Shown: piece after piece, positions 23,614 to 32,365 of the stretch
Numbering within the stretch: position 1 is the stretch's first letter
How the letters are laid out: each line of letters opens with the position of its first letter
NCBI GenBank assembly: GCA_003231975.1
Contig: QIKW01000195.1
Location: 1 to 43,332, forward strand
From: Acidimicrobiia bacterium
GTDB lineage: Bacteria > Actinomycetota > Acidimicrobiia > Acidimicrobiales > SZUA-35
Length of the DNA: 43,332 bases
Reading direction: 5' to 3'
Position numbers and translations under genes: made by a program
Notes under the pieces: model-generated
The model's input: only the letters and a program-made list of their open reading frames with translations
What the model was told of the DNA's origin: nothing
The model's database searches: none

Positions 23614-24795
23614 ATGACCGCAAACCTAAAGCGCTTAATCGCGCTTCTAGCTGTACTGACTTTGATCGCTGCTGCCTGTGGCAACGGCGACGATGATGAT
23701 GACAATGCCGGTGGGGTTGATAACGACACCACCACTACCGAGGGGGACTCGGGAGCCGAGACAACTGAAGAAGCGATGGAGGAAGAGCCAGCCGAGACCA
23801 CGGAGGCTCCAGACGTAACACTTGGACAAGGTGGAAGCCTTCTGGAGACCGTTATTGAACGTGGCACCCTTAAGTGTGGCGTGTCCGGCGCAGCAGTTGC
23901 GTTCTCGTTCACCCAGGCCGACGGTTCAGTAACCGGCATTGACGCCGACTACTGCCGGGCAGTGGCCGCCGCCGTTCTTGGCGACGCAGGCGCCGTTGAG
24001 TTCGTTCTGCTGACAGCAGCCGAGCGCTTCACCGCCATCCAGACCGGCGACGCCGATGTGCTGTTCCGCAGCTCAACCTGGACCCAAAGCCGTGACACCG
24101 ACGTTGGCATGGACTTCGGCCCAACCACCTACTACGACGGTCAGCAGCTCATGGCTCGCGCCAGCGACGGCTTCACCGGCACCTCTGAGGTAAGCGAAGT
24201 AGACGGCGCCATTGTTTGCACCAACGCAGGCACCACAACCGAGACCAACATCACAGAGCTTGCTGGAACCCTCGGAATCAGCATCACGCTGAACACCTTC
24301 GAAGACTTCAACCAGGTGGTCGATGCCTTCATCAGTGGAGCATGCGACGTAATCACAACCGATGGTTCTGGCCTCGTTGGCCGCAAGGCAGAGCAACAGC
24401 CAGACGATCAGGATTGGGTCATCTTCCCCCCAACGCCTATCTCCAAGGAGCCTCTTGGCCCGGTATACGGCCAGAACGACTCCAAGTGGGCTGACGCCAT
24501 CAACTGGGTTGTCTACGCCACAATCATTGCTGACGAGTACGGCGTTGGATCAGCTGATGTTGATGCCGCTCTCGCTGGCGACGCTCCCGAGATGGTTCGC
24601 CTTCTTGGCGGCGAGGGCGAGCTTCAGTCATCAATGGGCCTCCCGGCCGATGCCTTCTACCAGACAATCAGCCAGGTAGGTAACTACAGCGAGATATTCG
24701 AAGCGAACCTCGGCCCCGTTGGTCTGTTCCGTGAGGGATCAGCCAACGCTCCGTGGACCGAAGGGGGACTTATTTACTCCCCACCGGCTCGCTGA
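23614..24795 (+). CDS. general L-amino-acid ABC transporter substrate-binding lipoprotein (AapJ-like)
   Basis: Lipobox LTLIAAAC; acidic/Thr linker; SBP_bac_3 sequence LKCGVSGAAVAFSFTQADGSVTGIDADYCRAVAAAVLGD...ERFTAIQTGDADVLFRSSTWTQSRD. Confidence 0.9.
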   Translation: MTANLKRLIALLAVLTLIAAACGNGDDDDDNAGGVDNDTTTTEGDSGAETTEEAMEEEPAETTEAPDVTLGQGGSLLETVIERGTLKCGVSGAAVAFSFTQADGSVTGIDADYCRAVAAAVLGDAGAVEFVLLTAAERFTAIQTGDADVLFRSSTWTQSRDTDVGMDFGPTTYYDGQQLMARASDGFTGTSEVSEVDGAIVCTNAGTTTETNITELAGTLGISITLNTFEDFNQVVDAFISGACDVITTDGSGLVGRKAEQQPDDQDWVIFPPTPISKEPLGPVYGQNDSKWADAINWVVYATIIADEYGVGSADVDAALAGDAPEMVRLLGGEGELQSSMGLPADAFYQTISQVGNYSEIFEANLGPVGLFREGSANAPWTEGGLIYSPPAR

Positions 24796-24802
24796 TCTAG
24801 CC

Positions 24803-24921
24803 AGTTGAATGCTTCAACTAGCGGAAACTTTCCGTAGCAGTTGAAAAGTATCTGAGGGTGGGCCAGTCTCTGGTCCACCCTCAGTGCCGTATAGGGGACC
24901 GACGCCGCCTCGTTTGGCGGC
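24803..24921 (+). ncRNA. structured intergenic RNA region between aapJ-like and aapQ-like genes
   Basis: AGTTGAA-TGC-TTCAACT (24803-24819); alternative TTCAACT...AGTTGAA (24813-24845) enclosing CGGAA-ACT-TTCCG; 14-bp hairpin CTGAGGGTGGGCCA/TGGTCCACCCTCAG with one G.U (24852-24884); GCCGCC-N6-GGCGGC (24904-24921). Confidence 0.6.
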
Positions 24922-24944
24922 AAATCAAGGGGAACGAGAGACAC

Positions 24945-26513
24945 GTGGCAGCTGCTACACCATCAAGCCTGGTGCCCGACAGGGCAATGCATCACAAAAG
25001 GCCGCCCTTCTGGCGAAACGTAGGTGTTCTCAAGTGGGTGGTGCAAATAGTTGTGCTGCTCCTGGTAATCGGCGCCTTCTGGTTCCTTTCAACCCAGGCA
25101 CTCAGCAACCTCGACGACAAAGGCATCCCGGTTGACTACAACTGGATGTCTGGCCCGGCAAACATTCAGCTTGGCGAGGGAATCGACACTGTCCCCAATA
25201 GCGCAGGCCGGGCCCTGTGGTCTGGCATGGTTACAACGCTGCGGCTGGCAGGGGCTGGCATTGTGGCCTCAACCATCCTTGGGGTGCTGATCGGGCTGGC
25301 CAGGCTTTCAAACAACTGGCTTGCCAACCGGGCGGCCGGAACCTTCATAGAAACGCTTCGCAACATTCCCGTTCTGGTGCAAATGTTGCTGTGGTTTGCA
25401 ATCCTTACCTCGCTGGGAGACCTTGTAAACAACGACCCGGAAACCGCCGCCAACGAGGAATCGGGGCCAATACCGGGCTGGCTGTACATCTCGAAAAAGG
25501 GAATCTCGCTCCCCCGGTTCTTCTGGGCCGACGGCTTCTACCAATGGCTGGTGTTCCTGATTGTTGGCGGAGCAATCGCCATGTTTGTGCGAAGGCGCAT
25601 TCAGGCCAAACAGAACCTGGTTGGCGGCACCGCTCCAACAGCCAGTGTGCCGCTGGCCATCTTTGCAGCCTTTGCCGTTGTTGGCTGGTTCATCAACCCG
25701 GTGGTTGGCGGGATCGGCAACGTCTTTGACGCCATGGAAAGCGCCTGGGGCTCAATCCCCGAAAGCGGGATGAGAATCTTCCTCAGCGTGGCAGCAGTTG
25801 CTGCTGCTGCGCTCTGGATCAAGCGGTTCCTCGATTCCAAGCGCTCTCCCGCCGGCTTGGCCAAGCTGACAGACGACGACTACTTCCGCATGATCTTTGC
25901 CGGGGTGGCGGCCTTGGCGTTCATGGCCTTTGCTTGGCGAGTGTGGCCCGGCGGGGCCAGCTGGCTGATCAACTCTGGCAGTGACTTCTGGGGCTGGCTT
26001 GGAGACAAGTTCGGCAACGGCCGAAATGCCAGACCGCTAGACGGCATGCGGCCAACAATCAACGAGGGTCGGTTTTCGAACTACGGGCCAACGGGCTGGA
26101 CAATGACGGTGTTCTTCGGCTCACTGTTCCTGGGCCTGGTTCTCTACACTGCCAGCTTCATCGCCGAAATCGTTAGGGGCGGCATCCTGGCGGTTCCAAA
26201 GGGCCAAACCGAGGCCGCAATGGCCCTTGGCCTCAGCCGGGTTCAGGCCCTGCGCAAGGTGATTCTGCCCCAGGCTTTCCGGGTGATCATGCCCCCACTT
26301 GGCAACCAATACCTGAACATCACAAAGAACACGTCGCTGGCCATCGCAGTTGGCCTCAGCGACGTCGTGCAAGTGGGCCAAACCGTCTACAACAAGAACA
26401 ATCAAACCCTCGCGGTGTTCGGAATCTGGATGGCGTTCTACCTCATCTGTTCCTTAACAATCTCTGCAATTGTGAACTTCGTCAACGGCCGCCTAGCAAT
26501 CGTGGAGCGCTGA
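24945..26513 (+). CDS. amino-acid ABC transporter permease (AapQ-like, with internal expansion)
   Basis: BPD_transp motifs TLRLAGAGIVASTILGVLIGLARLS...FIETLRNIPVLVQMLLWFAI; FIAEIVRGGILAVPKGQTEAAMALGLSRVQALRKVILPQAFRVIMPP. GTG 24945 with an aaggggaacgag-type RBS preferred over ORF-track start 24858. Confidence 0.88.
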   Translation: MAAATPSSLVPDRAMHHKRPPFWRNVGVLKWVVQIVVLLLVIGAFWFLSTQALSNLDDKGIPVDYNWMSGPANIQLGEGIDTVPNSAGRALWSGMVTTLRLAGAGIVASTILGVLIGLARLSNNWLANRAAGTFIETLRNIPVLVQMLLWFAILTSLGDLVNNDPETAANEESGPIPGWLYISKKGISLPRFFWADGFYQWLVFLIVGGAIAMFVRRRIQAKQNLVGGTAPTASVPLAIFAAFAVVGWFINPVVGGIGNVFDAMESAWGSIPESGMRIFLSVAAVAAAALWIKRFLDSKRSPAGLAKLTDDDYFRMIFAGVAALAFMAFAWRVWPGGASWLINSGSDFWGWLGDKFGNGRNARPLDGMRPTINEGRFSNYGPTGWTMTVFFGSLFLGLVLYTASFIAEIVRGGILAVPKGQTEAAMALGLSRVQALRKVILPQAFRVIMPPLGNQYLNITKNTSLAIAVGLSDVVQVGQTVYNKNNQTLAVFGIWMAFYLICSLTISAIVNFVNGRLAIVER

Positions 26514-26514
26514 G

Positions 26515-28344
26515 ATGACAGACTCAATCAACACCGCACCAGCAACAGACAACCTCGATGCTCTGATTGCGGCGAATGCCCCGCCCGAAATACCAACCCA
26601 CGGCGCGGTCGACTGGATGAAGAAGAACCTCTTCTCGTCGATCTCAACAACCGTCCAGACCTTCTTGTTCATCACTCTGTTGGTGCTCATTCTCCGCTGG
26701 CTGCTTGGCCTGATCTTCGACCCGGAAGCCAGTTGGGACTCAGTCGCAACCAACATGCGGCTGCTGTTCACCTACAACTACCCAGCCGATCAATTCATCC
26801 GAATCTGGTTCACCGTTGGGGCCCTGCTCACCGCAGTTGGGCTCACCATTGCCGCCTGGGGGGTAGACCCGAAACTCTCGGTCAAGAAGCTGGGAGGCAA
26901 TCTGGTTGGCGTCGGGGCGCTAATTGCCATCATGGGGATAATCGCCCCAGCCTCGTCAACCATCAAGACCGGAATGATTGTTGTTGGCGTGCTGATTGCG
27001 GTGCTGGGCTACGGAATCAGCCGGGTATTAGGTGAGCAGAAAATCTCGTTCTTTCCGTTCCTCCTGGTGGTTGCTGGCTTTTGGTTGGCCGTGCTGTGGC
27101 TGGTGCCCTTTGGTCGCAACGAGTTCATAGACGGAGCCGTCTCGAACCTCCCAGGAACAATCAACCCAAGCACCAAGATCCCGTGGACCATTCTGATACT
27201 GCTGTTCCTTGGCTCGGTGCTGGCAGGCCGAGCGCTGGTAACAGTGATCAAACCCCAGGCCTTGCGGCTAACCATGATCGCCTGGTGGGTTGTTGGCCCG
27301 GCCTTCTTAATCTTCTTGGTACTGAGGGACCCTCAGTTCGACTACGACAAGGTGTTGCGCACCGACGTTCCCTGGGCCCTTGGTTTTGCCATCATCGGTG
27401 GCGCCATTCTGTATTGGTTGGCCAAGCCAGGGGTTGGCGAAATAGGTCGCCTTTTTGCCGCATCGGCCACCCTGTTCGCCCTCTTCAACTGGGTTGCGGC
27501 ATTCGCGGGCTGGTATTCGATGCTCCAGAAAGTCAGGCTGTCTTTCCTGGTGTTCGCTCTATTCGCCCTGGCTGCGCCCACCTTTGCCGGCGAGCGAAGC
27601 GTCAGGCTCAAGTTCGTTTACGCCTGGGTTGGAACCGTTGCCATCGGCCACTGGCTGATCACGGGAATCAACACCGTATCAACGCTAGACATTGCGGCTC
27701 CACCGTTCCTTGGCGGTTTCACTTTGTCTATGGTGATTGCCTACTACGTGATGTTGGCCTCGTTTCCGCTCGGCATCATTCTGGCTCTGGCCCGCACCTC
27801 GAAGCTGCCGATCTTTCGGCTGCTTTCAACGCTCTACATAGAGTTCGTTCGTGGCGTGCCCCTGATCACCATCCTGTTCTTCTTCTCAATCATGGTGAAC
27901 CTGTTCCTGCCAGGTGGAATGGAGCTGGCAGAGCTAGCTGCCATCTTCCTTGGTTACGCACTGTTCTCTGCCGCTTACATGGCCGAAAACGTCCGTGGCG
28001 GCCTCCAGTCCATCCGTGTCGGGCAGTACGAGGCCTCAGATGCTCTCGGTTTGACAACATCGCAGCGCACAATCTTCATAGTGTTACCCCAGGCGCTGCG
28101 AGTAACCATCCCCAACCTCGTTGGCCAGGCCATCGGCACCTTCAAAGAGACCTCCCTAATCGCAATCGTTGGCGGGTTCGACCTGCTGAACGTTGCCAAA
28201 CAATCAATCCCGAACCAGCCAGACTTCCTGGGCCAGAACAAGCCAGCGCTGTTGTTCATCTGTGCCATCTATTGGGCGGGTTCCTATTCAATGTCTCGAG
28301 CCTCGCGCAACCTCGAGACCAAGCTCGGGGTGGGCACTCGATGA
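26515..28344 (+). CDS. amino-acid ABC transporter permease (AapM-like, with long polytopic N-terminal extension)
   Basis: C-terminal permease core ([74 protein letters not shown]) preceded by ~390 aa with many hydrophobic segments. Confidence 0.9.
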
Positions 28345-28414: not shown

Positions 28415-29188
28415 ATGACAATGACCGACACTGCACTAAGCGAAGAGCTTGCCTCCCGCCGCGACATGATCGAATGCGTTGGGGTTAAGAAATGGTTTGG
28501 AGACTTCCAGGCGTTAGGAGGCATCGACCTAACGGTTAAAGAGCAAGAGGTGATGGTGGTTCTTGGCCCGTCGGGCTCTGGCAAGTCAACCTTGATTCGC
28601 TGCATCAACCGGCTTGAGGTGCACCAGGAAGGCACCATCGTTGTTGACGGAATAGAGCTCACCAACGACCTGCGCAACATCGACAAGATCCGTTCCGAAG
28701 TTGGGATGGTGTTCCAGCAGTTCAACCTGTTCCCCCACCTCACGGTGATCGACAACATCACCCTGGCCCCCATTTGGGTTCGCAAAAAGTCAAAGGTTGA
28801 GGCCCTACGCGTCGCCAGGGAACTGCTTGAGCGGGTTGGCATTCCCGAGCAGGCCGAGAAGTTCCCTGGGCAGCTTTCGGGTGGTCAGCAACAGCGGGTT
28901 GCCATTGCCCGGTCTTTGGCCATGGAACCAAACATCATGCTGTTCGACGAACCAACCTCGGCGCTCGACCCCGAAATGATCTCAGAGGTACTTGACGTCA
29001 TGAAGGGCCTGGCCGAGTCTGGCATGACCATGGTGGTTGTAACCCACGAGATGGGCTTCGCCCGAGAAGTGGCAGACCGCCTCGTGTTCATGGAAGACGG
29101 AATGGTTGTTGAGATCAACAACCCCGAGGACTTCTTCACCAACCCGAAGTCTGAACGCACCCAGCTGTTCCTCAGCCAGATCCTCTAG
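28415..29188 (+). CDS. amino-acid ABC transporter ATP-binding protein (AapP-like)
   Basis: [58 protein letters not shown] 28415 chosen over ORF start 28193, which overlaps the permease. Confidence 0.95.
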
Positions 29189-30794: not shown

Positions 30795-30835
30795 CAGCAG
30801 GCTCCTGGTTAGTAGGAAACGATTAAGCCGATACT

Positions 30836-30863
30836 CCGGCTGGGGCAGTGATGCCCCAGCCGG
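30836..30863 (-). terminator. strong hairpin between the Liv-type SBP gene and livF-like gene
   Basis: Perfect 12-bp stem CCGGCTGGGGCA-GTGA-TGCCCCAGCCGG; two further hairpins (30866-30881, 30881-30896) lie between it and the SBP stop. Confidence 0.65.
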
Positions 30864-30892
30864 AAGATCAGCGAACTGATCTGATCAGATGA

Positions 30893-32365
30893 TCAGATGC
30901 AAGGACCGCCGAACTGGTAGTCGGCGGTGATGTCGGCAACAAACGGGCCCTCGATGAGGGTGAGACCGGACGAACCGGTCCCGGCGCTTACCGGCTGAAG
31001 ATCAAAGGTCGTTGCGTCTACATCGAAGATGTAGCTTTCACGAACAACGATCTCGTCGAAGGTGCCGTTGTAGCTCTGGTTGGGAGAGATGCCCTGGAAG
31101 TCAATGCTGACTTGCTGTGATGCAGCAACCACTCCGGCCCTTGTCATGTCGCCGTTCTCGGCGGCCTGAAGGAGGATGGTTTCAACCATGATGCCTTCGA
31201 TCCAACCCGTGATGTAAGAGTCGGAAAGAACGGCGTCTGGGCGACGCTCGACCATTGCGGCCACAAGGGTTTTCATGCCCTCACTGTCGTTGCCGTTCCA
31301 CGGCACCGCATAGCCCGACTGCCAGTAGTACTGGTCAAACAGTGGTGCGAGGTCAGACGAAAGCAGAGCCGGGTAGCTGAAGCTTGGGCCATTGCCAGAC
31401 CAGTCGGCTTCAAAGCCCTGGGCTACGGCGTTGCCGAACACGTCGGCCAGCTCACCTGGGGTGAGGGTGGTCCACACCATGGTGGCGCCAGAGGCAACCA
31501 GCTGGGCGATCACCGCGGTGCGATCGTCGCCTGCTACTTCGCCAATTCCGCTGTAGACAACTTCAATGTCTAGCAGTTCGGCAGCAATGACTGCGCCTGC
31601 GGCGCCGTCGGCCCCGTACTCACCAGGCCGGGAGATGATGGCCAACTTGGCTTCCTTGCCGTCGGCCTCAACCTTGCTCTTCAACCACGAAACGCCGTTC
31701 ATTGACTCAGCGCAGTACGTGGTTTGCTTCTCAAGGATGTTGGCGTTGGCAGGATCTGGCCACAGTGAGGCCCAGCTGAGCGGGATTACCAGCATGTTGT
31801 CTTCGGCTGCGTCTTCGGCGATGGCTGCGGTGATGGGTGACCCGGTGTTTTCCGAGATCATCACAACGCCCTCTTCAGACTCTTGAGCCAGTTCAAGATA
31901 GTTCTCGATGCCCTTGTCGGTGGCGTAGCCACTGTCGAGGATCACCGTTTCTACCTGGCGGCCGGCAATGCCGCCTGCGTCGTTGACCGCTTCCCAGTAA
32001 ACAACCTGGGCCTCAACAATTTCTGAGACCAAGGAGGCAAACGGGCCCGAGAGGTCGGCGTTCAGGCCGATCCGAATAGTGGTTTCTGTTACTCCGAAGT
32101 CGGTGAGGACCTCAGCAGCCTCTTCCATGGCGCCTTCGCCTTCGTCTTCCATGGCGTCTTCGTCTTCCATGGCCTCCATTTCCTCATCGGTCATGGCATC
32201 TTCGTCTTCCATGGCCTCCATTTCCTCATCGGTCATGGCATCTTCTTCATCTGGAGCCGCCGCCGTGGTGGCGGTTCCCGCGTCTACGTCGTCTCCGTCT
32301 CCTCCGCAGGCCGCGGCGATAAGGCCGAAAGCCATTAGGAGGGCGAACATTCGCTTTAGTTTCAT
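30893..32365 (-). CDS. branched-chain-type ABC transporter substrate-binding lipoprotein (LivK-like)
   Basis: Lipobox LIAAAC; repetitive acidic linker; periplasmic-binding core IRIGLNADLSGPFASLVSEIVEAQVVYWEAVNDAGGIAGRQVETVILDSGYATDK. Confidence 0.92.
   Translation of the reverse strand: MKLKRMFALLMAFGLIAAACGGDGDDVDAGTATTAAAPDEEDAMTDEEMEAMEDEDAMTDEEMEAMEDEDAMEDEGEGAMEEAAEVLTDFGVTETTIRIGLNADLSGPFASLVSEIVEAQVVYWEAVNDAGGIAGRQVETVILDSGYATDKGIENYLELAQESEEGVVMISENTGSPITAAIAEDAAEDNMLVIPLSWASLWPDPANANILEKQTTYCAESMNGVSWLKSKVEADGKEAKLAIISRPGEYGADGAAGAVIAAELLDIEVVYSGIGEVAGDDRTAVIAQLVASGATMVWTTLTPGELADVFGNAVAQGFEADWSGNGPSFSYPALLSSDLAPLFDQYYWQSGYAVPWNGNDSEGMKTLVAAMVERRPDAVLSDSYITGWIEGIMVETILLQAAENGDMTRAGVVAASQQVSIDFQGISPNQSYNGTFDEIVVRESYIFDVDATTFDLQPVSAGTGSSGLTLIEGPFVADITADYQFGGPCI
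32157..32240 (-). repeat. perfect 42-bp tandem duplication in the SBP linker
   Basis: tcttcgtcttccatggcctccatttcctcatcggtcatggca occurs twice head-to-tail (DAMTDEEMEAMEDE repeat), with shorter degenerate copies adjacent. Confidence 0.95.

Follow-up and report, generated by a model that had tools for sequence, protein, structure and literature searches.

The window, a stretch of 43,332 nucleotides from an Acidimicrobiales genome, carries on its plus strand an operon in which a gene for a substrate-binding protein (SBP) is followed by two permease genes and an ATPase gene. A literature search found no paper on the operon of these genes in the Acidimicrobiales lineage. The SBP reading frame stops at 24795 and the first permease starts with a GTG at 24945, leaving a gap of 149 nt (24796-24944) flanked by an SBP_bac_3 gene and a BPD_transp_1 permease gene. 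The genes and the hairpins of the gap are as follows.

23614..24795, + strand: SBP gene, SBP_bac_3, amino-acid-type lipoprotein, 393 aa (open reading frame; Pfam PF00497, E 5.9e-14)
24803..24819, + strand: alternative hairpin A, AGTTGAA-TGC-TTCAACT (from the sequence; -5.0 kcal/mol)
24813..24845, + strand: hairpin P1, outer stem TTCAACT/AGTTGAA around GCGGAA/TTCCGT (fold, -13.0 kcal/mol)
24852..24884, + strand: hairpin P2, GC-rich, 15 bp including one G-U, UCU loop (hairpin scan)
24904..24921, + strand: hairpin P3, 6 bp, GCCGCC/GGCGGC, upstream of the ribosome-binding region (fold)
24945..26513, + strand: first permease gene of the operon, GTG start, BPD_transp_1, 522 aa (open reading frame, in frame to 26513; Pfam PF00528)
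26515..28344, + strand: second permease gene, 609 aa (open reading frame; PF00528, E 2.5e-18)
28415..29188, + strand: ATPase gene, GlnQ/AapP type (PF00005, E 8.8e-38)

Against the GlnQ model the ATPase (28415..29188) scores 324 bits, under that model's cut-off of 379. In both long permeases the Pfam permease domain accounts for the C-terminal part only, and much of the remaining sequence is unexplained; the start context of the first permease, GTGGC, is common to many relatives. The DNA for the N-terminus of the SBP (23641-23696) matches two other places in the same genome, C169:4852-4907 (79%, directly upstream of an SBP_bac_5 domain) and C35:9331-9373 (84%), and this repeated segment is perhaps a shared lipoprotein signal segment. 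A leader peptide was looked for among the open reading frames of at least 100 aa: the sole one starting in the gap (24858) merely lengthens the permease frame in phase.

The gap region as a whole folds at -70.5 kcal/mol, compared with -51.4 kcal/mol in shuffled sequences (z -4.62), and surpasses all 200 dinucleotide shuffles. Its minimum-energy fold lengthens P1 to 24809-24851 (-14.7 kcal/mol). P2 ranks first by strength among the 30 hairpins that a simple scan picks out in the window, and the sequence right after it is TGCCGTAT, with three T in eight positions. The repeats reported by the sequence-only reading lie exactly where it placed them (AGTTGAA at 24803 and 24839, TTCAACT at 24813, CGGAA at 24822, TTCCG at 24830), as does the 6-bp GCCGCC/GGCGGC hairpin ahead of the ribosome-binding site (24904-24921). 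The terminator-like hairpin at 24852-24884 is likewise present, but its stem has 15 bp including one G-U, not the 14 bp first counted.

We then compared the gap among relatives. Permease relatives were gathered from 148 related genomes and from GTDB contigs, followed by SBP-permease DNA from the family and the order; the named relatives are Acidimicrobiales. The resulting set holds 99 distinct SBP-permease gaps, the window's own included, and takes in more distant, paralogous operons whose SBPs are about 40% identical (e.g., L029, L085-L098). A hairpin of -20 kcal/mol or lower occurs in 95 of these gaps (median -32.0 kcal/mol), many of which are closely related and hence are not 99 independent observations. 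Median gap length is 151 nt, with the hairpin starting a median 48 nt past the SBP stop and having a median stem of 14 bp. Most of the distant paralogous operons also have the hairpin. We also examined 74 loci with the same gene pair, of about 3-7.5 kb and with a mean of four such hairpins each; in 70 of them no hairpin is stronger than that of the SBP-permease gap. P2 thus shares two features of SBP 3' stem-loops: it stands between the SBP gene and a translocator gene on one strand, and orthologues retain a stable GC-rich stem. The P2 arms GTGGGCC/GGTCCAC become GCGGGCC/GGCCCGC in near relatives of the window, with pairing kept.

Compensatory change was counted in an alignment of 18 marine-clade sequences. 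For P2, 98.6% of cells are paired, and three of its 16 pairs carry changes on both sides while 10 are invariant; in the inner part of P1, compensatory change is seen in five of seven pairs. Taking P1 outer, P1 inner, and P2 together, 86.8% of cells are paired (83.1% in shuffles, 38-58% in slid versions; above all 500 shuffles), 32 cells are changed on both sides (11.5 in shuffles), and the covariation score is 0.213 (0.158 in shuffles), with none of 500 shuffles as high for either of the latter two. Every slid control is beaten on all three measures. Two further counts from this alignment are not clearly above shuffles, namely pairs with both-side change (9, a count reached by 46 of 500 shuffles) and further pair types (23, reached by 495 of 500). 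Because the alignment around P1 appears poor for several marine sequences (L040, L046, L048, L050, L052, L054, and L068), the P1 pair counts probably underestimate P1 conservation. P1 was also misaligned in a MAFFT alignment of the window with its marine relatives, and near relatives were therefore compared hairpin by hairpin. A P1-type hairpin of -5 kcal/mol or lower precedes P2 in 70 of the 99 gaps, and the stretch upstream of P2 in relatives is on the whole more stably folded than its shuffles (median z -1.83). Structure downstream of P2 in relatives is at the shuffle level (median z -0.09), and P3 is therefore not a conserved part. Judged by this comparison, P2 is the real feature of the gap, and P1 is also kept as structure, to a lesser degree.

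ABC importers need the SBP in excess. Very probably, the gap acts as a constitutive 3'-end element of the SBP message, a leaky terminator and/or a barrier to exonucleases, that raises SBP mRNA over permease mRNA. A short transcript of the SBP gene alone would end at P2, and it could arise by two routes: RNA polymerase may terminate in part at P2, or 3'-5' exonucleases may halt at its stem once the downstream message has been cut, and the two may combine. SBP mRNA would then exceed or outlive the permease-ATPase mRNA and give an excess of SBP, with P1 serving as a second barrier or as an aid to P2 folding. Either route would yield more SBP than permease, and the sequence appears compatible with both. 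Whereas the position, conservation, and compensatory changes of these hairpins are computed, their effects on RNA ends and on RNA and protein levels are what we infer. In Escherichia coli, the stabilized mRNA in five ABC operons is always that of the SBP gene, and a protective 3' structure has been described for malE (PMC5927463). The malE-malF region resembles the present gap in having strong RNA structure between the SBP and permease genes of one operon, with the SBP favored (here by prediction). The organism and sequence differ, the decay effect was measured in E. coli and is predicted here, and in the present case the P2 sequence varies among relatives while the stem is kept.

A narrower form of this explanation holds that P2 acts purely as a leaky transcription terminator and not as a decay barrier. 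T is mildly enriched in the eight nucleotides past P2 (0.306, compared with 0.206 gap-wide); 48 of the 99 gaps have at least three T in these eight positions, and some relatives have a true T-run (L020, TTTTTTGG). However, at least five T are found in only seven of the 99 gaps, and the window has three. By the usual rule, a hairpin without a U-tract is a poor terminator. P2 is followed directly by TGCCGTAT and not by a canonical U-rich tract, so termination is not predicted under that rule, and a terminator scan did not report the window P2. In cellulolytic clostridia, stem-loops 3' of SBP genes have long GC-rich stems and low-U tails and act as internal terminators of partial effect (PMC9045158). 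Structured transcript 3' ends lacking U are common in Streptomyces (PMC8269248). Like P2, the clostridial stem-loops follow a 5' SBP gene, have a long GC-rich stem and low U, and involve no anti-terminator; unlike P2, which is known from sequence, they were shown to terminate in a reporter, and here P1 is often added upstream. The Streptomyces ends share with P2 a high-GC actinobacterial stem without a clear U-tract, but they form a genome-wide class that is not bound to SBP-permease gaps. We regard pure termination as a tentative reading that is somewhat doubtful in this restricted form.

An internal promoter in the gap would offer a different arrangement, in which the permease genes have transcription of their own and P2 closes the SBP unit. 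In favor of this idea, all 18 aligned marine-clade gaps (e.g., L037:2831-2980) carry an unchanged TCTAGGCT downstream of P2 and ahead of the permease gene, and the 12-mer CCTCTAGGCTGA recurs exactly in an intergenic region of five of the seven marine-clade genomes tested. This second site has a dnaA-like gene on one side and a yidC-type gene cluster on the other, and the region was read as dnaA-rpmH. A -10 element (TAGGCT) could recur in this way, and CCTCTAGGCTGA is possibly a promoter -10 of this kind. The motif is, however, absent from the window, where the nearest sequence is TATAGG at about 24890, and it was not seen in the window's near relatives. A promoter scan found none in the gap, and a good -35 is absent at the right distance. 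Separate transcription of the permease genes thus seems unlikely. For the marine clade, a pairing of CCTCT with AGAGG that would sequester the ribosome-binding site was also rejected: in L040, L046, L048, L054, and L068, TCTAGG is retained but CATCT stands in place of CCTCT, and the pairing is lost.

The mutually exclusive folds around TTCAACT had suggested a possible switch or attenuator to the sequence-only reading. In such a device A and P1 would answer an amino acid or a protein and alter permease termination or translation. The triple AGTTGAA-TTCAACT-AGTTGAA is exact, and it appears in nine of 20,000 gap shuffles, a rarity to be read with the fact that the motif was picked after being noticed. 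During transcription A would fold first (probability over 0.99 for transcripts ending before about 24840) and would be displaced once the second AGTTGAA emerges, P1 being in charge by 24846. In the full gap, however, P1 has a probability of 0.995, so the two folds are very unequal and A would be a short-lived intermediate at most.

In 70 P1-bearing gaps, the window's included, we asked how well the 5' arm of P1 can pair at best with upstream sequence, relative to 500 shuffles of that sequence. The window itself is weakly unusual (p 0.044), and its near relative L010 has an upstream 6-bp competitor (p 0.026); L039 (0.048) and L089 (0.008) also fall below 0.05. These four are close to the 3.5 gaps expected among 70, and the median p is 0.506. 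As the upstream competitor is at the shuffle level, a switch is not a conserved property of the gap. Moreover, no base of A (24803-24819) or P1 (at most 24809-24851) belongs to P2, which starts at 24852, or to the ribosome-binding region, and the alternative folds therefore have no visible output. P1 of near relatives has no conserved primary sequence fit for a ligand core, and Rfam, proposed as a source of a known family, matched neither the window nor any of 20 loci. Amino-acid riboswitches and attenuators resemble this gap in that two mutually exclusive helices can be drawn; here, unlike in those systems, the competing arm is unconserved, no output overlaps, and Rfam is silent.

We consider a switch highly improbable, and hairpin A, specific to the window, is probably a local coincidence. 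A lineage-only kinetic timer, in which the extra AGTTGAA arm delays P1 and thereby delays or tunes P2-dependent termination or processing, whether or not a regulator takes part, would escape a comparison whose closest relatives share about 80% DNA identity at most across the SBP gene; its chance nevertheless appears very slight. Of the earlier proposals, both pairings of TTCAACT can indeed be drawn, but the upstream arm is not conserved in the 70 gaps; the stem conservation and covariation put forward as a test are absent for the alternative stem and present for P1 and P2. The switch or attenuator reading is not supported, given the unconserved arm, the lack of overlap with P2 or the ribosome-binding region, the empty Rfam search, and the unconserved structure after P2. 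The simpler proposal, a stability element setting the SBP:permease ratio, gains support: P2, and less so P1, is kept across the order, and experiments in other bacteria have established this kind of arrangement (PMC5927463; PMC9045158).

The constitutive 3'-end element was also considered against the other SBP genes of this genome. Among 17 SBP genes of three families, six, including that of P2, have a hairpin of 14-20 bp within 120 nt after the stop; SBP genes that run straight into the next gene mostly have none. Since several SBP operons of this genome are without such a hairpin, it is not obligatory here. One of the six lies in this window: its second strongest hairpin (30835-30864, minus strand) stands 3' of a Peripla_BP_6 gene (domain 31016-32080); in a strand-aware scan it has 20 bp at +21 to +66 past the SBP stop, ahead of the next same-strand open reading frame.

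P2, together with P1, most likely joins an already known kind of device, that of malE-malF and the clostridial ABC importers. The comparison of relatives illustrates how a conserved element can be told apart from a conspicuous alternative pairing, and a stem that is kept while its sequence turns over is what would be predicted of a ratio-setting structure. Acidimicrobiales, a largely uncultured order, would thus join the groups in which ABC importer operons almost always carry a hairpin 3' of the SBP gene.
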